64,000 nucleotides of DNA, taken from positions 42,281,559-42,345,558 of the forward strand of contig OY979718.1 in assembly GCA_963855995.1 (NCBI GenBank), written 5' to 3'. Under the pieces are notes generated by a model. That model made no database searches and was not told where the DNA came from. It saw only the letters and a program-made list of their open reading frames with translations. Positions 50,382 through 63,125 of this stretch are shown piece after piece. The first letter of the stretch is position 1, and every line of letters starts with the position of its first letter. Made by a program: the position numbers and the translations under genes. Origin of the DNA: Muricea muricata (Eukaryota; Cnidaria; Anthozoa; Malacalcyonacea; Plexauridae).

Positions 50382-50390
50382 TTGGACTTT

Positions 50391-50467
50391 CAACCTCGTA
50401 CCCGGGGTCTTACCTACGCCCGGCGCTGCGGAGAGACCCTGGCGCCCGCTGGTCGCGTGGCTCCCAG
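50391..50467 (+). repeat. Left 77-bp TIR of the 9-kb element
   Basis: Begins CAACCTCGTACCCGGGGTCT, GC-rich (CGGCGCTGCGGAGAGACCC), ends CTCCCAG. It is unusually GC-rich for this window. The right TIR is its complement with three mismatches. Confidence 0.9.
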
Positions 50468-50726
50468 ATTCTGGGTGCTAATACAAATTGTAACTTAGTG
50501 TGGGGTGGGTAGCTATGTATTGTCATAAATTGAAATTTTTCTTTTGATTCAATTTTCCTTAATTCGTCCTTTACAAGACAATAATAAAATTGTGCTTGAA
50601 GAAATGCTGCAAAACAATAAATTACAGAGTGGCAGCAGAAAGAATATCGAATTACTCGTAAAGCCAACATGTGTCGCGTCTCATATTTCACGGTATCGTC
50701 ATTTGGCTGGTAAGCTGGTTCGCCTG

Positions 50727-51176
50727 ATGGCGAGCAAAAGCACGCCAAAGAAACTATACAAAAAATCTTCGGCATCAAATGAAAATAGTGCTCGTTGTCG
50801 ACTATGTAATGGTGTACAAGATCCGAGACATTGTAAGAATCTTTTCAACAAGACAAATCAAAAAATTTTGAATAACGTGGAGTCGATTCATGGCGAGAAA
50901 CTGCCGCATGTTGAAGGCTTTCCTAATTTATTGTGTCGTCCTTGCGAACGAAGAGCAAGTAATACCATTACATTCAAGAATGTAATTTCCGAGACACAGA
51001 AATCACTGCTTAAAGATTCCAGAACCAAGCGATGTCTAGATATATCTCCATCCGTTGTCAGACCTGCTGCCAAAGTTGCTGTTGTTGACAGTCGAAGGCG
51101 CAGCTTATTCAATGTGTCTTCGTCGAGTGATGAACCCACAGCAATGGCACAGATGCCATTGGCTATGCCAATGGAA
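50727..51176 (+). CDS. Exon 1: Cys-rich N-terminal module of the DUF6589-like protein
   Basis: After a basic start (MASKSTPKKLYKKSS) it reads CRLCNGVQDPRHCKNLF and, about 35 residues on, LLCRPCERR, giving a CxxC...CxxC arrangement like the ZAD or other four-Cys zinc modules that recruit DNA or mediate dimerisation. RTKRCLDISPSV and a Ser-rich stretch (SSSSDEP) follow. Exon 1 is undamaged. It would supply TIR recognition if the element were active (inference). Confidence 0.65.
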
Positions 51177-51351
51177 GTAAGTTAAATTATTTATACATTC
51201 ATAATTCAATACTCATTAATAATTCATATTCAAAGACAAAGTCGAGAAAATCACCGCCATATCTTTGTCTTCAATTGATACCACGGTAATATACTAAATT
51301 CAGGTTGGTATGATAAGCGCTCAGTCACTGCTCATTAAATTAAGCTCGAAA

Positions 51352-51454
51352 TTGTTTATCACCAGCATATAAAACAATTCAAAATGTGTATAAAAATTCG
51401 TCTAGCGCCTCGTTTTTCAACACACATTTCGGTGTTTTATATGCTGGTAATAAA
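51352..51454. mobile_element. Intronic 103-bp hairpin MITE
   Basis: TTTATCACCAGCATATAAAA pairs with TTTTATATGCTGGTAATAAA inside intron 1 of the DUF6589-like gene; inner arms ACACATTT and AAATGTGT also pair. Confidence 0.6.
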
Positions 51455-52000
51455 TGCTTTTTGTCTCAGTGTCTGGCTTATTATGTATTGATATGTCTAC
51501 TGTGTAATATGCTCACATTCAATTTTTGATTTAATATGATTTATGAAAAAGACCCTACATTCAAATAGCACCATTCATTTTGGAGAATATAAAATACTGT
51601 ATTAATCATATTTTAAAATTAATTTATATAAAAACAATCAACAACTCAACTTGGGTTGTGGACAACTCAATAAGTCATTCCATATGAATATACATGCCAC
51701 CTTTATAAACATATTTTTCTTATGGATATGTTATGAAATATATAAGGAATGGGTTATCATTGAATTGGATTTTGATATTTTAATTAAATCTTATTGAATG
51801 TTTATATGAAGGCTGTGCTATAATTGCCCCTGAGGGACCCAAACACAGCCCTCTGTTATGCCCAGTATGTATATTAGTGACCTAGACCTCACTAGTAAAA
51901 TAAAAAAATAGGTTCCTGTATTCAGTACTCATGAGCTTTTGGTCCAGAGAAGCAGCTACTGTACTCTGTCTGATTATTGTTTTATTTATTTATTTTACAG

Positions 52001-52339
52001 GTTGATCCAGACTTGGGGTCAGTTCCCATGATTGATAAAGCTAACAAAGAGCTTGTTGAAGTTGCCCCAAGGAGTGAACCTTTCGTTTTGCGTGAAAGAT
52101 TGTTTGAAGGACTGGTTGCCACGGACTGGATGTCTGAAGTGAGGAAAGAACTGGCAGTTAGATGTCCTGTTGTGAACAATATCCTGTCTGTTTTTCTGTA
52201 TATGAGTCATCATCATGACAAAAAGGAACCTGTATTGTGTTTGATTTATAGCATTATTATGCATTTGAGATGTCATGAATTAAGTAGAGTACAGTGGATC
52301 AATTCCATCCTTCTCGCTCATTGTCAAGCTTCTGTAAAT
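52001..52339 (+). CDS. Exon 2 of the DUF6589-like gene
   Basis: 113 codons, open, phase 0 at both ends. Contains EVRKELAVRCPVVNNILSVF and CLIYSIIMHLRCHELSRVQW INSILL, an all-helical segment conserved in the family, ending ASVN at the donor. No damage. Confidence 0.65.
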
Positions 52340-52955
52340 GTGAGTTTGAAAAACATAATTAACAATGATGAGAATATATATATAAGCATAACTGAATTTA
52401 TTTTTATTTGTGCACAAGTGGAGTTATTTTATGATTTCCTGCAATCTGATAATTGGCTGCACAAGCAGGCTCTTTTATCAATTATATTATATATCTACAA
52501 TGAGGGCAAAAAAATTACCCTACAACAGGCAAAATAACATGTGCTAAATTAAAGCACTTTTTCACACAAAAACAATAGCAATTTGGCAGCCATGATTGCA
52601 AAAAAGTAATGAAACAAACACAACTGATCTCAAATTTATGTTTCAACACTTGAATTTCTTATGAATTTGATTGTTGGTCCATGCTGGAATAACATTTTGT
52701 CTATGCGCAGCCTCAAAAATATCTGGGCCTCAAGCTGTCCTTTAGACCATCAGAGATAACACGTTTTAGCATTGACCTCCAAACTGGTAAATAACATACA
52801 TATTACAAAACTCATACATGTACTTATCTAATTATGTGTGAGTTAAATAGAATTTGCTTCTCCACTTTAATTTGATATCACTCTACACCTAATAGTTTGT
52901 ATAGCATATCTTTCTTATTATAACACTAAAAATAATGTTCTTATTCCTCATTTAG

Positions 52956-53861
52956 TTGATTGACCGCCTAAACAAATATGGGATATGCCTTCATTCAAGA
53001 AAAAAGTACATGTTGTTTGACAATATTGGCCAGAGTTTCCTAGATCGTGCTGTGGAATTAGTGAAGTCTGGATACCAATTTGTATTTGTACTAGACAATA
53101 TAGATTGGGAAGAGAAGGCTCATGACATGCGGAAAGACAACCAAAACACTAGTGTCCATGCAGTAGCAACTAGCATTGTCTTTAATCGAATCCCAAGTGA
53201 AGAGTTACCTGATTCTGAACGACAACAAGATTTACGGAAGTGCAATGTCAATCAGCTGGTCAAGGTTACTGCCTCAGAGATGGACTGCATAAGAAAGCGG
53301 TATCGCACGTTTGTTTAAGATATTCTGTTTGAACATTTTCCTTTCTTCAGCACTTTCAAACTGAGCTTGTTTGATGAAGGCACATACTGTCGTTATTCTG
53401 ATGAAATAGCAAAGAAATCAGAAACCATCACTATGCCAATTCTGATGAAAGATGAAAAAAAGTATGCAGAATGTGTCGATGTGATGGATACTTTAGAAGA
53501 GTGGACACACCAAATATATTCTGCTGCTGGATTGTGCCAATCAAGCAGATCAACCCCTCCCTCAGATGCAAATCCTGACCCCTCTCAACCTACCTCTTTG
53601 TCTTCAATTGTTGCTCCCTCTCAACCAGCACTGCAGCAACATTCTAGACCTGACCAACCTGCCTCACATATTCCACCTTCTTCATCTGATGAAGACCCAT
53701 TGCGAGGGGTTAGAGTTCCTTGTTTTGCTGACCAGCTTACAAGGGTCCGTATGGCTGGTGCAAAAGATCTTCGTGCTGGTACACATACTGCTAGACAACG
53801 TTTGGATCATTTGTATCCATTTTGCATAGTCGATTGGAACACAAAGAGGAGCTACTTCAAG
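52956..53861 (+). pseudogene. Exon 3 of the DUF6589-like gene, in-frame TAA
   Basis: 302 codons. The first part LIDRLNKYGICLHSRKKYML, FVFVLDNIDW, DNQNTSVHAVATSIVFNR carries the first candidate acidic motif (LDNID). After TAA at 53316-53318 the same frame resumes with EHFPFFSTFKLSLFDEG, a Pro/Ser/Gln-rich disordered linker (about 53540-53700), then FADQLTRVRMAGAKDL, the second candidate motif, and ends at AAG|GTATTG. One nonsense codon is the only damage. Confidence 0.65.
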
Positions 53862-54512
53862 GTATTGTACTGTTAAATTGATTAACACCGAACTGAGTGG
53901 AAAATGTGTGTAATACACTATCGGAATAGTGTCGGAAGGATTGTTATAAACATATCAAAATTCAAGTCAAGATGCAAATAGTTGAGAAAAATTTATCATT
54001 AACCATAGGTCCGCTTTCACAATCAAACCTAGGCCTATGCGGGCTTATGTAAGACTCTGGGTACAAGGTTGGGCCTATGGCCTACCCTATAGAATCACCC
54101 ATTCAATTTAGCAACTTCTATGTAATTATCACTGAAAAGTTGAAAATTGTCATGTACTGTTTCCAGATTTGACATGTTTATAAGATCCTTGTGAAATGCA
54201 AGGGCAATATAGAAGGGAATTTCTGTGTCTGAATAATATTACAGCCAAATCTTTCCACCCTGATCATTCACAGTACTAAAATTCTATTACAGGTACTGCA
54301 TGAATTTAAATATAAGTAACTGGTAAACAGAAAATAAATAAGCACTCCCCCCTTTGCTGCCTTTCAGCCCTTCCCCTCCCCACGGTCTCACCTTCAATAA
54401 ACACCCTCCAGAATGGTTGCAAATGATCCAAGAAATGAACACTTATAACCATTTACATGCAAATATGCTTAAATAAACAAATATAGAGGAAATACGATTT
54501 TATTGTTTATAG

Positions 54513-55538
54513 AGTGTGTTTGAACACAGGTTGTATAGAAACTCTGCAAGAGAAAAAGGTACCATTCAGGTATTTCCGTGAAAAGCTAAACCGGCGCAAC
54601 GTAACGTGAAGCATTTTGAAGACTGTGAACAGTTGTTCATCAGCATAGGTAGATGTTTTGTTGTCGAAGCTCTTTTGGAGTTTTTTCAAATGGCTGACAC
54701 GAAACAAAAACCATCTAAAAATGCTCCTAATTCCCTTGATGAAGAACAAAAGGATGTCTGCATCATCACGACAGTAGAAAAGTTCTTGGATGAGTACGTG
54801 TTTTTTGCAACAGATGATGATACAACTGGTAATGAGGCTGCCGATGATAAGGATGGTGTCTTTGCATATTCCGTTAACCTAATGGTGTCATTCCTGCTGC
54901 TGGCTGATGTAAAGGATGCTGTTAAATCTGGCAACGGTGAATACTTGGCAGTATTACGAAAACAGTTGCTGGTACACTCCTCAAGTACTCCTGGCTACAA
55001 TGAATTTGCTATCGAAATGCTAATAAACATCCTGCAGTGCCAAGTCTTGCTGACTGAGGCGGAAGCACATCAATGTAAGAGGGCAGCAACTGTAAATTGG
55101 AATGGTGGTTCTGGTAAGAACATTGAAATTGATCTGTTCCAAGAAAACCAGAACAGTGAAATGAAGAAAATGGTTAAATCTATGGGAGCCAACAAATCCG
55201 AACAGGCTATTGCCCGAGCCAGTAAAGCCTGAAGTGGTGTGAAGAAGATTGTTGAATCTTATGAAGATCAGGTTAACATCCACCGAAAGTCCTCTGCCCA
55301 TTCCCATAGGTCGGCCCTCAAGGATGAGAAGATTATTCTTGAAGACTTGAGAGAATTGAGACCTTTCAAGGAAGTTGCTGGTAGGCATTTCGAATCCTTT
55401 CAGGTTATTTCTGCTAATCCAACAAAGAAGTTTGATAGAGTTAAATTTCAAACTTGGCTTGACAGACATACAAAAAACATATTGCTTCATTATCCTGTTT
55501 TCGACAAGGAAGATGTGTTTGATGATGCATTTTTATGA
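54513..55538 (+). pseudogene. Exon 4 of the DUF6589-like gene, two frameshifts and a TGA
   Basis: Starts SVFEHRLYRNSAREKGT, shifts frame to FREKLNRRNVT near 54573 and again to KHFEDCEQLFISIGRCFVVE near 54603. It then runs open through CIITTVEKFLDEYVFFATD and STPGYNEFAIEMLINILQCQ to SEQAIARASKA, TGA at 55230, and on to WLDRHTKNILLHYPVF and the end. The C-terminal helices with NKSEQAI and the acidic ENQNSEM are where a third catalytic acid would be expected. Confidence 0.62.
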
Positions 55539-56409
55539 TAAGTATGAATAATTACATTTGCAAGTATTTTATTCCGGTGCACAATGTAGTGTAATTGTAA
55601 TACTAAAATCTACCTTTCAATGTTAAGACCAACCTTGTTAGTTGATTAACATGATTTGAATAGGTAAGTTTAAGTACATTTGAAAATGCACAGTTCCGAA
55701 GGAGTGAAAAAAATTTTCCTTGTCCTTTCAAATCACATTACAACTTTCCTTATCTGTCTTAGCATTGACAGGGGCACACAGTAGATGTGAATATACAGTA
55801 AATTAATCTAGTGTAATATGCAGGGTTTCACTAAGCAGAATTAAGAACTTTTCACAGACTGAAATATTGCACAAAATATCTACAATAACTAATCAATTTT
55901 AATGCAATGGTACTGGCTGAGGTGATTTTTGAAACCCCCCAACTAAAACCATAAAAAAGAAGCAATAAAACCTGTTTTTTGTTAACATTATTAACTTATC
56001 TGTGCCATACAACAGTTGCAGCAGCAACACTCAATATATACAATTTAAAACAATGTTTTCTATGATAGTTTTATGAAAGCACGGCATGAATTTTCTGCCA
56101 AGAAAACAAGCATATCTAATAATCCAATAACACAACAGAAGTTTTTGGGCACCTGTAAAAATTGTCGTGAAATTTGTGCGGTTTTTCCAGGTTTTTTGCT
56201 GGGGTTTTTAACAAAAAACCTTTAAAAAACAAATATTTACCAATAAACCACCTCAGCCTAAATTTAAGCACCTTTAAGGGTTTCAAGCACCTGCACGAAT
56301 AGTGAATTAGTAAATAAATATTGCTACAGAAAGTGATAATTGTTTGAATAAAGTTTGTGGTAAAAAATATCGCTACACTATAAAAAGCTATGCTTGGTTC
56401 AATCAAGTT

Positions 56410-58122
56410 TTAGATCTCCTGAAAGTCATTGATTAGTTGTTCTAAGCATGTTGAACACTCACAGGCCTTCTCACACACACTGCAACAAAGGTGTAGTGGA
56501 TTTTTTCCTTGTTGTATGTATAATCTAGTGACTTCAGGAGTTCTTTTCTCAGGCACTTCTTATCTTGATGGCAAAACTCCCTCATATCATTTTGCATGTC
56601 AACTTTATTTCTGGCAATATCCCTGTTATTGTAGTATAGGATGGCATCAGCTTGTTTATTATCCCGACCTGCTCTTCCCGTCTCCTGAAAATACTGCTTT
56701 ACAGAGTAAGGAGGGCTTATATGGATGATCCGACGGATGTTTGGTATATCTACACCCATCCCAATGGCAACTGTCGCAAATATTACACGGACAATGCTAG
56801 TTGGTGAGCACAACTGTCGTAATATTTCCACTTTCATTTGTTCAGTTTGAGGTGCATGGAACTGTGCAAACATGCGATTCTCAGGTACTGCAAGTCCTCC
56901 TTCTGGATAATATTGCTAGTGGGATAGAATTGACTCAAACAATCTATATGCAAAGCCACACCATCTGAGGGGTAGATAGACAATGGTCAAAGGTAAGTCC
57001 AGTTTTGATGTCAACAACTCTTTGGCAATTGGCCTTAAAATAGATTCAATTGCATCAATGTCTCTTCCTGAACAAAAAATCTTTTTATAAAAAATATTGG
57101 TTCTGTCTGGGTTGCCAATCACTTGTTTACATTTTTTCAAGCCAAAAGATTCTTGAATCTTGACTGCATCAGATAAGCTGGCAGTTGCTGTCATTGCAAC
57201 AACTGGGATGTCAGGAAAGGTTACACAAAGAACACCCAATTTTCCGTAATCCTTCCTAAATTCAGTACCCCTGAAAAATTAAAAAATCATCCATTGAGCA
57301 TCGACCCTTCTACTGGTAGTGAATACTGAATAGCAAAATCATATGGGTCATTTACTTGTAAATAACTTAATTGATCTTGCTGACAAAATACTGACAGTTG
57401 TATACTAGAAAGTCAATGTGATGTATATTCATAGAGGTGTTTGGGTTTCTGCATAATAAAAAAGTAAGCAGACCAGTATATATAAATAAAAAGAAGAACA
57501 ACAAATGGTATATACAAAAGTTTTAACCGAACTGTATGACTTACCAATCCAATATGCAGTGAGCCTCGTCAATGACAATTGAAACAACACGTTCTTTGTA
57601 CGTTTCACTCAAAATCATATCACGCCCAAATTTGGTTGATATGATCGACTCTGGGTGAGCAAACACGATGTGATATTGTCCTTTAAGAAGACGATCTTTT
57701 TCACACAGTCTAAAGTCACAAGTGTATAAAGGTGTACTCCCCAGGTTTACATCGTCGTCGGTGATTTCTTCTAATTCCCGAATGATTATTGAAATGGCAG
57801 ACGCGCGGATGCCACAGGATTTCAGTCGAGATATTTGATCTTGTATCAGTGAATTTAATGGAGAAACAACAATAACAATCGTCAAGACGTCTTCAGTACA
57901 TGATTTCCATGAGGAAGGAGAGTCCGTTCGTTTAATATAGTCCTTCGCAAACATCAACATTGGAGTAAGATGAAAGATCAGAGACTTTCCATAACCCGTT
58001 GGCAGAATACAAATAACATCTTCCAAACATATTTCTTGCTTCGGCTTCAGTATGTTATTATGATACGCACTATTCAGAACAGCGAATTCCAAACAGGCAA
58101 GAAATGCAATCAACTCAAGCAT
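56410..58122 (-). pseudogene. RecQ-like superfamily 2 DNA helicase, two exons, nonsense and frameshift
   Basis: Exon 1 (58122-57545) has an ATG, KPKQ (motif 0-like), ILPTGYGKSLIF (Walker A), VVSPLNSLIQDQ (Ia), and IVIDEAHCILDW (DEAH Walker B) split by the intron (GATTG|GTAAGT). Exon 2 (57270-56410, acceptor TTTTTCAG) has GTEFRKDY, VVAMTATAS (III), IVYLPLRWCG (IV), IFATVAIGMGVDIPNIRRII (V) and QETGRAGRD (VI). Together these are the complete RecQ motor. TAG at 56916-56918 and a one-base loss near 56497 interrupt it; after the shift a Cys cluster (CCSVCEKACECSTC) ends the protein. RecQ enzymes unwind DNA 3'-5' with ATP. Convergent with the DUF6589-like gene, 0.87 kb apart, inside the same TIRs. 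Confidence 0.85.
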
Positions 58123-58302
58123 ATTTGTGCGTTCAAATTCGTTTTACTTTTAATACTCCTTTATTCCAATTTGTATCCGCAGGGCGCTCTAAAACACGTG
58201 TACTAGGGCTCCTGGTATCAGATTGACAAAGAATAGTTTGAGATTATGCAAGGCTGGTACAGCTGCAGTATAATATTAATTATATGAAAGATACGAGACG
58301 AG

Positions 58303-59177
58303 ATTTAACAATGCATTGTCTTTATTTCATTCACTCCAATCAAATAATTACAGTGATTTCAAAGTTTTAAACAATAACAACAACAAAACAAAGTATTTCA
58401 TCATCACCACGACCTCCCAAACCACGGGCTCGAGGGTAGTATCTTACTAAGGACCTACGTTCAAACTTATTCATCCGTTTATTAGTAGTACCTAAAAAGG
58501 TACTCAGTTCATCGCTGGCTTCCCAACGAGAGTTAGGGGAAGCAAATTCCTCGTCAAAAGCAGTCGAATCGACCTCGTTTTCCTGCGCGGATGATTCCAA
58601 TGTCAATGGACCACGCGGTTTTTTAGCATGTAAATGTTTTTCAGAGTCTGCGGGTTCCTTGGCAGCCCTTTTTCGACTTTCAGCACCCGTTTGATCGTCT
58701 GATACTCCGGGATTTACCTGATTAGTTTCCATACCCGTTTGATCGTCCGATACTCCGGGATTTACAGGTTGATTCTGGCTTGAAAAAGCCGAATCAGAAC
58801 TCTCACTGTACGTATTTTTTAAAATCGGGTCAATATTGGACAATATAGCTGATATTAAGGCGGTAATAAGACCTCGATCGGCCACAATAGCCTGAACGAG
58901 ATCATTGTTATTCGTCTGCCTACCTCCAAGTTCGCCTTCACGGTCGGATGCTTCGCGATGCGAAGGATTGTCTTCTGATTCACAGACCACAACAATTTCT
59001 TCGTCCGCCATCTTCGAGGAGTGAACAAAAAAGACGTCAAGTAATCCTGAGCCCGTGGTTTGGGAGGTCGTGGTGATGATGAAATACTTTGTTTTGTTGT
59101 TGTTATTGTTTAAAACTTTGAAATCACTGTAATTATTTGATTGGAGTGAATGAAATAAAGACAATGCATTGTTAAAT
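58303..59177 (-). mobile_element. 875-bp element with perfect 129-bp inverted repeats (DIRS-like derivative?)
   Basis: 58303-58431 and 59049-59177 are exact reverse complements over 129 bp (outer ends ATTTAACAATGCATTG; inner ends CCCAAACCACGGGCTC). No target duplication flanks it. The minus strand carries a gag-like ORF running into the left repeat. Inverted terminal repeats without a duplication and a gag-type ORF are features of DIRS-order elements; here RT and recombinase are deleted. It inserted between the RecQ gene and the right TIR of the 9-kb element. Confidence 0.65.
58367..59011 (-). CDS. gag-like ORF of the 875-bp element
   Basis: ATG at 59009-59011 gives MADEEIVVVCESEDNPSHRE. A polar, acidic protein follows with a duplicated VNPGVSDDQTG unit, a basic patch (KHLHAKKPRGP) and RWEASDELSTFLGTTNKRMN KFERR. 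The last residues (GGRGDDEILCFVVVIV) are encoded by the inverted repeat itself. It resembles the first ORF of cnidarian DIRS-like elements in my recollection; no structural motif proves it. Intact frame of 214 codons. Confidence 0.45.
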   Translation of the reverse strand: MADEEIVVVCESEDNPSHREASDREGELGGRQTNNNDLVQAIVADRGLITALISAILSNIDPILKNTYSESSDSAFSSQNQPVNPGVSDDQTGMETNQVNPGVSDDQTGAESRKRAAKEPADSEKHLHAKKPRGPLTLESSAQENEVDSTAFDEEFASPNSRWEASDELSTFLGTTNKRMNKFERRSLVRYYPRARGLGGRGDDEILCFVVVIV

Positions 59178-59315
59178 GGAGGCGAGTATCTTGAAATATA
59201 ATTCAAATTACACGTTCTATAATTTTGTCCGCTCCTTGCAAATGAATATTATTATTGGAAAGTGGAAGCACTGTAAATTCAGATTTGTCCATCCCTCCCT
59301 TAGTAATTTGATATC

Positions 59316-59392
59316 CTGGGAGCCACGTGACGAGCGGGCGCCAGGGTCTCTCCGCAGCGCCGGGCGTAGGTAAGACCCTGGGTACGAGGTTG
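59316..59392 (-). repeat. Right 77-bp TIR of the 9-kb element
   Basis: Complement of 50391-50467. The three differences are at TIR positions 14, 61 and 65. The 9-bp duplication TTGGACTTT follows immediately. Confidence 0.9.
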
Positions 59393-59401
59393 TTGGACTT
59401 T

Positions 59402-60750: not shown

Positions 60751-61056
60751 ATGGAAGAGACGCAAGCAAATCAACCTGAGCAATCGCATGATAATGCTAT
60801 TGTTTCGGCCATTGCTTCCATGAGTGAGGTTTTGGCTACTTCACTGTCCTCACTGAAGACAACGATGACAAAAACAAGTTACAGACCCGACTACAACCGT
60901 CAGAGAAATTACAAACTGGGGCACAAGAGAGCATACCCTTTTGCTAATCGAAATGCACCTCAACGATCATTTCCTGTCAACAAACATTTAAACTGGAAAC
61001 GGCCCAGCCTCCAGAACTCAAGAGAAAGAGTCGAGGGGAGGAGGCAGACCAAGTAG
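60751..61056 (+). CDS. gag-like ORF1 of the DIRS-order element, 101 aa
   Basis: A small polar protein: an N-terminal QANQPEQSHDNAIVSAIASM amphipathic stretch, then a basic half (RPDYNRQRNYKLGHKRAYPF, RVEGRRQTK) suited to nucleic-acid binding. No zinc knuckle. Expected to coat element RNA by analogy with DIRS ORF1. The pol frame stays open upstream of its own ATG, back under the end of this ORF (ELKRKSRGEEADQVGPS), so a frameshift fusion is possible as well as separate initiation. Confidence 0.6.
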   Translation: MEETQANQPEQSHDNAIVSAIASMSEVLATSLSSLKTTMTKTSYRPDYNRQRNYKLGHKRAYPFANRNAPQRSFPVNKHLNWKRPSLQNSRERVEGRRQTK

Positions 61057-61085
61057 GGCCAAGTATACCCTCTAGTGAGGTTAGT

Positions 61086-63125
61086 ATGAATACTTCTCAA
61101 TTTCAAGCCGGTAATTTAAAAAATTATATAGATGTGTGGCAGACAGCAACCGATGATCTAGATGTTTTAGACTGGGTTGCGCATTGTCATATAAAGTTCA
61201 TTAATAATGAACTGCCAATTCAGACTGAGATGCAGCGTGCTATAAAATTTAATGAAAAAGAGTCCATTATTATTGATAAGGAAATTGCAAAGCTCCTTGC
61301 AAAAGGTGTTCTTGTTCATTCCCAGCATGAACCAGGGGAGTTCATATCTCCTATCTTTTTACGGCTTAAGAAAAATGCGATTGATTATAGAATGATTCTC
61401 AACTTAAAAGAGCTTAATAGCTTTGTTGAGTATGAACACTTTAAAATGGAATCACTTCGTTCTGTAACAGACATGATGACTCCCAATTGTTATATGGCAT
61501 CAATCGATATAAAGGATGCCTATTATACTGTGCCAATAGCATTAGAGCACCAGAAATATTTAAAATTTGCATGGCGGGATACGTTGTATCAGTATACTTG
61601 TTTACCAAATGGCTTATCATCAGCACCCCGAATTTTTACTAAGATTATGAAACCTGTGTTCCAAACGTTGAGGAAACAAGGGCATATGTCATCCTCATAT
61701 ATAGATGATTGTTACCTTCAAGGAGAAACCTATAATGAATGTGCTGACAATGTAGACGTTTCTACATCTCGTCTTAAACAATTAGGGTTTTTCCCCCATG
61801 AAGAAAAATCACAAATGGTTCCAACACAGCAGATTACTTACTTGGGGCTCGAACTTAACTCGATTACAATGACTGTTACGCTGACAAAAGAAAGGGCCAC
61901 AAATATTAAACAAAAGTGTGCGACTATTCTTGCTGCAAAACAGGTTACCATTCTTAAATTAGCGCACGTAATCGGCCACTTAGTCTCTAGCTTCCCAGGG
62001 GTCGAGCACGGCCCCCTTTACTACAGGAGTTTAGAGCACGAAAAAACAACCTCTTTAGCAAACCATCATGGGCACTATGATGCCCAAATAACCCTTTCCG
62101 CTGACTCTGTTTCAGATTTACATTGGTGGGTTAATAATGTTGAAACGGCTACAAAACAAATCTCTCACGGTGAACCGCGTGTTTTTATACAAACTGACGC
62201 ATCCACCCATGGATGGGGCGGCGTTCGCGACGGTAATAGGACTGGGGGGAGATGGAAGCCAGAAGAAATTAACTCACATATAAACTACTTGGAATTATTA
62301 GCCATTTTGCTTACTTTGAAAGCGTTATGTCATGATTGTAAAAATAAACACATACGAGTACAGTGTGATAACACTACAGCAGTTTGTTATATAAACAATA
62401 TGGGCGGGTCAAAATCCCACAATTGTAACGCCATTACTAAGCACATATGGGAATTTTGCATTCACCAACAAATATGGTTGAGTGCCGCTCACTTACCAGG
62501 CTGCAAAAATACAGATGCCGATCTTGCATCACGGCATTTTAACGACCGGACTGAATGGATGCTTGATCGCCGCATATTTGAACAGGTCGCTACTAAGTTT
62601 GGGTATCCCACAATTGACCTATTTGCCTCGCGTTTAAACAACCAGTGTCCAAACTATGCCTCATGGAGACCAGACCCAGGTGCCCAACATGTAAATGCAT
62701 TTTCTGTTAATTGGCATAATTTTTTCTTTTATGCTTTCCCGCCATTTAGTGTAATAGGACGCTGTTTAGAGAAAATACAACACAATCAAGCCGAAGGGAT
62801 CCTGATTGTACCATTATGGCCAAGTCAAAGTTGGTATCCCAAGCTACTCAGACTTTTGGTAAGCCTTCCAGCTGTGATTCCAGCGAAGGACAACTTACTC
62901 AAAATGCCAGCCACTCAGAAGTTACACCCGTTACGAAAGAAACTGACGTTGTTAGCATGTCATTTATGCGGCGACTCTACCAAAACAAAGGCTTTTCTCA
63001 ACAAGCTACAAATATCATCCTCAACTCTTGGCGAGAATCCTCGCATCAACAGTACGGAACATATATTAGTAAGTGGCTATTATTCTGTTCTAAAAGAGAG
63101 ATTAATCCCGTTCGTCCATCTGTAA
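61086..63125 (+). CDS. Reverse transcriptase-RNase H polyprotein of the DIRS-order element, 679 aa
   Basis: Open throughout. RT: ISPIFLRLKK and DYRMILNLKELN (fingers), SIDIKDAYYTVP (Asp141), PNGLSSAPRIFTKIM, SSYIDDCYLQG (YIDD 205-208), TYLGLEL. RNase H: FIQTDASTHGWGG (Asp371), NYLELLAILL (Glu403), VQCDNTTAVCYIN (Asp428), CKNTDADLASR (Asp477/479). The C-terminal region TIDLFASRLNNQCPNYASWR, HVNAFSVNW, FYAFPPF and VPLWPSQSWYP is typical of DIRS-type pol and aligns with the segment sometimes called methyltransferase-like. It converts element RNA to DNA. Every catalytic residue I looked for is present. It overlaps the recombinase ORF by 310 nt. Confidence 0.88.
   Translation: MNTSQFQAGNLKNYIDVWQTATDDLDVLDWVAHCHIKFINNELPIQTEMQRAIKFNEKESIIIDKEIAKLLAKGVLVHSQHEPGEFISPIFLRLKKNAIDYRMILNLKELNSFVEYEHFKMESLRSVTDMMTPNCYMASIDIKDAYYTVPIALEHQKYLKFAWRDTLYQYTCLPNGLSSAPRIFTKIMKPVFQTLRKQGHMSSSYIDDCYLQGETYNECADNVDVSTSRLKQLGFFPHEEKSQMVPTQQITYLGLELNSITMTVTLTKERATNIKQKCATILAAKQVTILKLAHVIGHLVSSFPGVEHGPLYYRSLEHEKTTSLANHHGHYDAQITLSADSVSDLHWWVNNVETATKQISHGEPRVFIQTDASTHGWGGVRDGNRTGGRWKPEEINSHINYLELLAILLTLKALCHDCKNKHIRVQCDNTTAVCYINNMGGSKSHNCNAITKHIWEFCIHQQIWLSAAHLPGCKNTDADLASRHFNDRTEWMLDRRIFEQVATKFGYPTIDLFASRLNNQCPNYASWRPDPGAQHVNAFSVNWHNFFFYAFPPFSVIGRCLEKIQHNQAEGILIVPLWPSQSWYPKLLRLLVSLPAVIPAKDNLLKMPATQKLHPLRKKLTLLACHLCGDSTKTKAFLNKLQISSSTLGENPRINSTEHILVSGYYSVLKERLIPFVHL

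Follow-up and report, generated by a model that had tools for sequence, protein, structure and literature searches.

At one locus of the anthozoan Muricea muricata, a gene for a DUF6589-like protein and a gene for a RecQ-type helicase lie between inverted repeats, which raises the question of whether they form a mobile element and, if so, whether it belongs to a known kind of DNA transposon or, as a first-pass annotation had proposed, to a candidate new class. We analyzed a window of 64,000 nucleotides around this locus (assembly GCA_963855995.1, contig OY979718.1, positions 42,281,559 to 42,345,558 of the forward strand), within which the element spans 9,002 bp (50391-59392).

Termini and insertion site of the element

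Terminal inverted-repeat comparison placed a left repeat (TIR) of 77 bp, beginning CAACCTCGTACCC, at 50391-50467 on the forward strand and a right TIR of 77 bp at 59316-59392 on the reverse strand, with three mismatches between them. The element is bordered by identical 9-bp target site duplications (TSDs), TTGGACTTT, at 50382-50390 and 59393-59401, and this 9-mer has just two occurrences on the forward strand of the whole window, both of them the TSD. Sequence comparison thus confirmed both the TIRs and the exact 9-bp duplication of the first-pass annotation.

The host site of the element is itself another repeat, and uninterrupted copies of that repeat carry the target once. When the flanks of the element were joined, a single alignment spanned the junction at all 40 places scored, out of 612 candidates in the same genome. 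In the six uninterrupted sites read among these 40, the flanks were continuous and the target was single-copy without exception, being exact in one site and differing by one or two mismatches in five. These empty sites are paralogous sites of the same genome rather than orthologous loci of other species.

Two convergent genes in a decayed copy

The gene on the forward strand starts with exon T1 (50727-51185, with a putative start codon and exon end), which encodes a zf-AD (ZAD) domain (PF07776, E 5.1e-07) and is collinear with the homologue P0039; its similarity to other copies begins at or near the putative initiator Met. The conserved part of exon T2 (52001-52348), found by tblastn to other copies, is likewise collinear with P0039. 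Exon T3 (52956-53315) carries the putative first catalytic Asp in a DNIDW motif, aligned to D362 of P0039, and exon T4 (53319-53873; partial PF20231, E 0.0013) the putative second one in a DQLT motif, aligned to D550. Exon T5 (54582-55229) encodes the core of DUF6589 (PF20231, E 6.6e-16) with the putative catalytic Glu in a DLFQEN motif, aligned to E807, and the C-terminal part, T6 (55233-55535), was delimited by similarity to other copies and by collinearity with P0039. In-frame stops directly follow T3 (53316-53318) and T5 (55230-55232). The zf-AD and DUF6589 domains are united in a single protein in the homologues P0039, P0049 and P0075. A homologue search with P0108 returned 23 proteins, every one of which bears an Em or EMCRGX name and, where an organism is named, belongs to Ephydatia.

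In an alignment of 53 of the 108 homologues found (A2), the residues of the proposed triad were invariant (D362 in 43/43, D550 in 52/52 and E807 in 44/44 homologues), and all three are present in the window; other acidic residues, D538 (47/47) and D732 (50/50), were equally invariant. A structure model was built from P0039, P0049 having been dropped as the stretch around its first Asp is missing from the annotation. The predicted fold aligned best with the P-element transposase, Hermes and RAG1 (VIA-align on the Foldseek top 1000, of which 995 were aligned), and the model displays a DDE RNase H fold with an insertion domain, as in P, hAT and RAG-Transib, with the caution that mostly helical models may reach such VIA-align Z scores without kinship. 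Foldseek itself gave no match at E ≤ 0.001, its best being Hermes at E 0.016, and a PDB sequence search with a 653-aa homologue gave no match at E ≤ 1. In a Pfam scan of the same homologue, DUF6589 alone exceeded the cut-off, and DUF6589 was not found by name in the literature searched. The conserved D/D/E residues and the predicted fold make it very probable that DUF6589 functions as a DDE transposase, so that the assignment made in the first-pass annotation is supported, as a prediction, by both lines of evidence.

The exons of the helicase gene lie on the reverse strand, in the convergent arrangement previously claimed. Exon H2 (57541-58143) encodes a DEAD domain with a DEAH box (PF00270, E 2e-13); exon H3 (56919-57278) was recognized by similarity to other copies; and exon H4 (56442-56915) encodes the Helicase_C domain (PF00271, E 1.3e-11), with at least 150 matches in the genome. 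An in-frame stop separates H3 from H4 (56916-56918). The gene probably starts near 58122, and its RecQ identity is given by the RecQ profile and by matches to RECQ1, BLM and WRN.

The copy in the window is decayed, with three in-frame stops and a nested insertion of about 966 bp (58237-59202), neither of which the first-pass annotation mentioned. The insertion sits upstream of the helicase exons, has 144-bp inverted arms (58288-58431 and 59049-59192) and is absent from two other copies, C48 and C1s, indicating that it is not part of the element proper. An ORF at 58367-59248 was considered as the N-terminus of the helicase and was rejected, since it lies mostly within the nested insertion that C48 and C1s lack.

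Related elements elsewhere in the genome

The TIR had at least 41 matches in the genome, both ends of the element in the window included, and 18 TIR pairs were considered. The TSDs were read for 16 of them, C2:25329777-25331764 and C3:46198026-46198113 being left out: 13 had an exact 9-bp duplication, two had one mismatch and one had none. The TSD sequences varied among pairs, whereas both ends began with 5′-CAACC in 16/16. At least 15 of the 18 TIR pairs enclosed a RecQ match among the matches listed. Other TIR pairs with 9-bp TSDs do enclose the DUF6589/RecQ combination. There were at least 104 DUF6589 matches in this one genome, at about 102 places after rows no more than 5 kb apart were merged. 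In at least 58 of the 104 DUF6589 matches listed, a RecQ match on the opposite strand lay 0.8-8.3 kb downstream, against a mean of 2.4/104 in a shifted control that took the highest listed coordinate as the contig end. Among the matches listed, 44/104 were free of RecQ within 10 kb, and in 2/104 RecQ lay upstream instead; the helicase may be absent from part of the family, or may have been missed among the matches listed. Both genes look constrained between divergent copies, and two close copy pairs gave weaker constraint, with dN/dS of about 0.4-1 (rounded values from few changes). RecQ recurs as a conserved partner within TIR pairs that have 9-bp TSDs and would play the accessory role that had been proposed, and the claim of a cut-and-paste-type element is supported.

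Since RecQ belongs to the ordinary gene families of hosts, two host genes might happen to lie between chance inverted repeats. However, the uninterrupted sites of the same genome with their single-copy target, the repeated finding of both genes inside TIR pairs, and the at least 104 DUF6589 matches at about 102 places in one genome rule out this coincidence, to which we assign practically no chance. The uninterrupted sites also argue against the refuting outcome named in the first-pass annotation, in which the two genes would be syntenic host genes of related genomes.

The length of the TSDs and of the TIRs would also be compatible with a Mutator-like element (MULE), whose TSDs are given as 8-11 bp in PMC6446971. 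Yet Pfam searches of the transposase exons and of the 653-aa homologue returned DUF6589, zf-AD and weak unrelated families only, and no MULE family at E ≤ 1; a profile absence of this kind weighs less than a direct comparison, and we consider a MULE highly unlikely. An element of the Kolobok lineage of the KolobokH type would, as here, combine a DDD/E transposase with RecQ. By contrast, according to PMC9587614, Kolobok has 4-bp TTAA TSDs and 5′-RR termini, against the varied 9-bp TSDs and 5′-CAACC ends found here, and KolobokH is reported from fungi only. Kolobok is therefore ruled out by TSD and termini, and we regard this reading as exceedingly improbable.

Placement among helicase-carrying transposons

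The element is likely to be an AcademH-type TIR DNA transposon with two genes, for a DDE transposase and an accessory RecQ-type helicase, present here as a decayed copy. Its membership in AcademH is probable and is set by description (helicase and TSD length) rather than by comparison with a reference Academ protein. PMC10045372 describes AcademH as helicase-encoding with 9- or 10-bp TSDs, mentions a nuclease in AcademX, and cites Kojima 2020 (Mob DNA 11:15), the title of which places AcademH in animals and fungi; RecQ helicase was placed in Academ already in 2013, in a passage of PMC3627910 citing Kapitonov et al. Of these traits, the helicase corresponds to the RecQ matches in at least 15/18 TIR pairs and the TSD length to the exact 9 bp of 13/16, and a DDD/E transposase is predicted from the conserved D/D/E residues, present in the window, and from the fold. 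Because a helicase with 9-10-bp TSDs in AcademH and RecQ in Academ were already described in these texts, the proposal of a new class is not supported. The first-pass annotation therefore stands for a cut-and-paste element with a DUF6589 transposase and a RecQ partner, but not for a candidate new class.

We also weighed a separate superfamily for the DUF6589/RecQ elements, kin to P, hAT and Transib/RAG, with a merely convergent likeness to AcademH in helicase and TSD length. The nearest structural neighbours, the P element and Hermes, favour this, as does the absence of DUF6589 by name from the literature searched. The nuclease of AcademX is XPG, and pairing with XPG is our own expectation for sister Academ lineages if DUF6589 is the Academ transposase; none of 26 XPG_I matches in the same genome lay within 10 kb of a DUF6589 match (the nearest was at 13.0 kb), which would also fit a separate superfamily, and no transposase-like ORF was recognized at the two XPG loci read of these 26. 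RecQ is moreover found in Kolobok, including KolobokH (PMC9587614). However, no Academ or KDZ/Zisupton proteins were among the structural-neighbour rows shown, so that, with no Academ structure there, the neighbours do not discriminate, and a helicase with 9-10-bp TSDs is a stated AcademH trait and RecQ an Academ one (PMC10045372, PMC3627910). A separate superfamily is, on balance, unlikely. Its more specific form, a DUF6589 superfamily between P, hAT and RAG-like elements and outside Academ, in which RecQ was long kept because it steers donor-site repair towards a self-replacing excision, appears improbable.

Under the preferred AcademH reading, the zf-AD and DUF6589 protein would bind the TIRs, and, as a DDE (RNase H-fold) transposase, would excise the element and insert it into target DNA cut with a stagger of 9 bp, which would leave the 9-bp TSD. 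The RecQ-type SF2 helicase encoded by the convergent gene would act as an accessory factor. In our preferred view it would open the ends or the intermediates of repair and so allow the gap at the donor site to be refilled by copying from the sister chromatid, a role like that proposed for host BLM after P-element excision.

The analysis adds no new transposon class; it assigns to Pfam DUF6589 the concrete and testable function of a putative DDE transposase, for which a triad is proposed. A single genome that holds dozens of divergent elements carrying a helicase, along with uninterrupted targets, is in addition a good system for studying what an element-encoded RecQ does in transposition. Among known systems, the P element, Hermes (hAT) and RAG1/Transib resemble the DUF6589 protein in predicted fold and were not among PDB sequence matches to the 653-aa homologue at E ≤ 1. 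P and hAT transposases bear THAP or BED domains, whereas the DUF6589 protein carries zf-AD. Kolobok-1_CCri (PMC9587614) has its helicase on the complementary strand and combines RecQ with a DDD/E transposase, as here. Academ is alike in carrying RecQ on a DNA transposon, as stated in PMC3627910, and AcademH, compared by its description in PMC10045372, is alike in being a helicase-encoding DNA transposon with 9- or 10-bp TSDs.

Ends and target site of the element

The element is 9,002 bp long (window positions 50391–59392) and is bounded at both ends by inverted repeats of 77 bp with 3 mismatches. An exact 9-bp duplication, TTGGACTTT, lies on either side, confirming the ends and target-site duplication (TSD) reported in the first-pass annotation. 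A second repeat family houses the element. For an empty-site search, both flanks were fused without the element and the genome was queried. In all 40 places listed (40 scored of 612 candidates), the fused flanks gave a single alignment spanning the junction. In all six uninterrupted places inspected among these 40, the target was single-copy and the flanks were continuous, the target matching TTGGACTTT exactly at one site and with 1–2 mismatches at five. Such paralogous sites, with a single-copy target in continuous flanks, show directly that the element was inserted and that 9 bp of target were duplicated.

Window positions 60948–63122 hold a 725-aa ORF with a reverse transcriptase match, a weak RNase H-like match and a sub-threshold Dam methylase match, a domain set that we take to suggest a DIRS-like retroelement.

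Recurrence of the TIRs and of the gene pair

Two TIR searches of the 453-Mb, 74-contig genome (G000), of which the window is part, returned at least 41 and at least 40 matches, and a plus-strand match was paired with a minus-strand match no more than 20 kb away. Among the matches listed, there were 18 TIR pairs: 15 enclosed a RecQ match, nine enclosed both a DUF6589 and a RecQ match, and three (1,959, 1,988 and 88 bp) enclosed neither. In three further pairs (the window copy and copies C4 and C1a), tblastn found DUF6589-like exons absent from the listed matches; the remaining three pairs with only RecQ listed were scored from the listed matches. Both genes were in convergent order in all six pairs inspected in full. 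At the 16 of 18 pairs whose ends were inspected, the 9-bp TSD was exact in 13, had one mismatch in two and was absent from one (C2:46880215–46887423). The check proposed in the first-pass annotation, that other TIR pairs enclose DUF6589 and RecQ genes with 9-bp duplications, was borne out in this genome.

Two pairs of about 2 kb with no listed DUF6589 or RecQ match, G000:C1:25744185–25746143, which has an exact 9-bp TSD, and G000:C2:25329777–25331764, are likely non-autonomous derivatives. At G000:C3:46198026–46198113, two TIR ends, matched over 46 and 40 bp, face each other and form an 88-bp near-palindrome.

The DUF6589 profile (PF20231) gave at least 104 matches at about 102 places, all exceeding the curated cut-off, and none in 14 control genomes, of which the four named are archaea, so that the controls probably include no eukaryote. 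The RecQ-type helicase exon H4, with a Helicase_C domain, gave at least 150 matches. At least 58 of the 104 DUF6589 matches had an opposite-strand RecQ match 758–8,323 bp downstream; among the matches listed, two had one upstream instead, and 44 (for example loci L021, L036 and L043) had none within 10 kb. When RecQ matches were randomly shifted in 500 trials, scoring any RecQ match within 10 kb, RecQ lay near 2.35 of the 104 on average and near no more than 7 in any one trial. Loci without a listed RecQ match may have a different accessory gene or lack one altogether; helicase exon matches at two of them, L025 and L037, indicate that the listed RecQ matches miss some loci. None of 26 XPG_I (XPG nuclease) matches lay within 10 kb of a listed DUF6589 match.

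A second, divergent DUF6589 lineage is found at loci L018 and L019, where the transposase core occupies a single open frame (640 and 653 aa) convergent with RecQ; the protein-database homologue P0001 and the L019 frame share 99% identity.

Selection and decay

Codons were compared among six inspected copies, forming 13 divergent and two close pairs. In the divergent pairs, synonymous differences were near saturation (pS 0.74–0.86) and nonsynonymous differences were 0.21–0.33 for the transposase and 0.21–0.28 for the helicase. Saturated synonymous with low nonsynonymous differences argue that both proteins have been preserved by selection over long times. The close pairs (window/C48 and C15/C4) showed few changes and weaker constraint, as expected for decaying copies. 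The identities of the two proteins covaried over the 15 pairs (r = 0.98), which are non-independent and dominated by the two close pairs.

The window copy carries in-frame stops at 53316–53318, 55230–55232 and 56916–56918; copy C48, 95.7% identical to it, has sense codons at all three positions. Upstream of the helicase exons lies a nested insertion of ~966 bp (about 58237–59202) with 144-bp inverted arms, 96% complementary, that is missing in copies C48 and C1s. Inspection revealed no clear TSD for it, and its long ORF gave only an insignificant best Pfam match (GEMIN8, E 0.24).

Proposed mechanism and relation to known elements

In the most likely mechanism, the TIRs are bound by the zf-AD/DUF6589 protein, which cuts by means of its DDE site and inserts the element at target cuts staggered by 9 bp. 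The RecQ helicase probably aids end opening or the processing of donor-site repair intermediates. The helicase may promote gap repair from the sister copy, much as host BLM would do once a P element has been excised. What is new here is the function assigned to DUF6589, a name absent from the literature searched.

The first-pass annotation had also proposed a candidate new class of element; this is not supported, since helicase-carrying AcademH/Academ elements are already described in the available text of PMC10045372 and PMC3627910. 'RecQ Helicase in Academ' appeared among transposon-encoded accessory proteins in 2013 (PMC3627910), and KolobokH, of the Kolobok elements with a TTAA TSD, carries RecQ (PMC9587614, available text), so that the pairing of helicase and transposon is not new. 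The element is real and well supported, and probably belongs to a known transposon kind. TSDs are 9 or 10 bp in AcademH and 3 or 4 bp in AcademX, lengths tied to their encoded helicase and nuclease in the available text of PMC10045372. Compared by description, the anatomy of our element agrees with that published for AcademH, namely a helicase and a 9–10-bp TSD.
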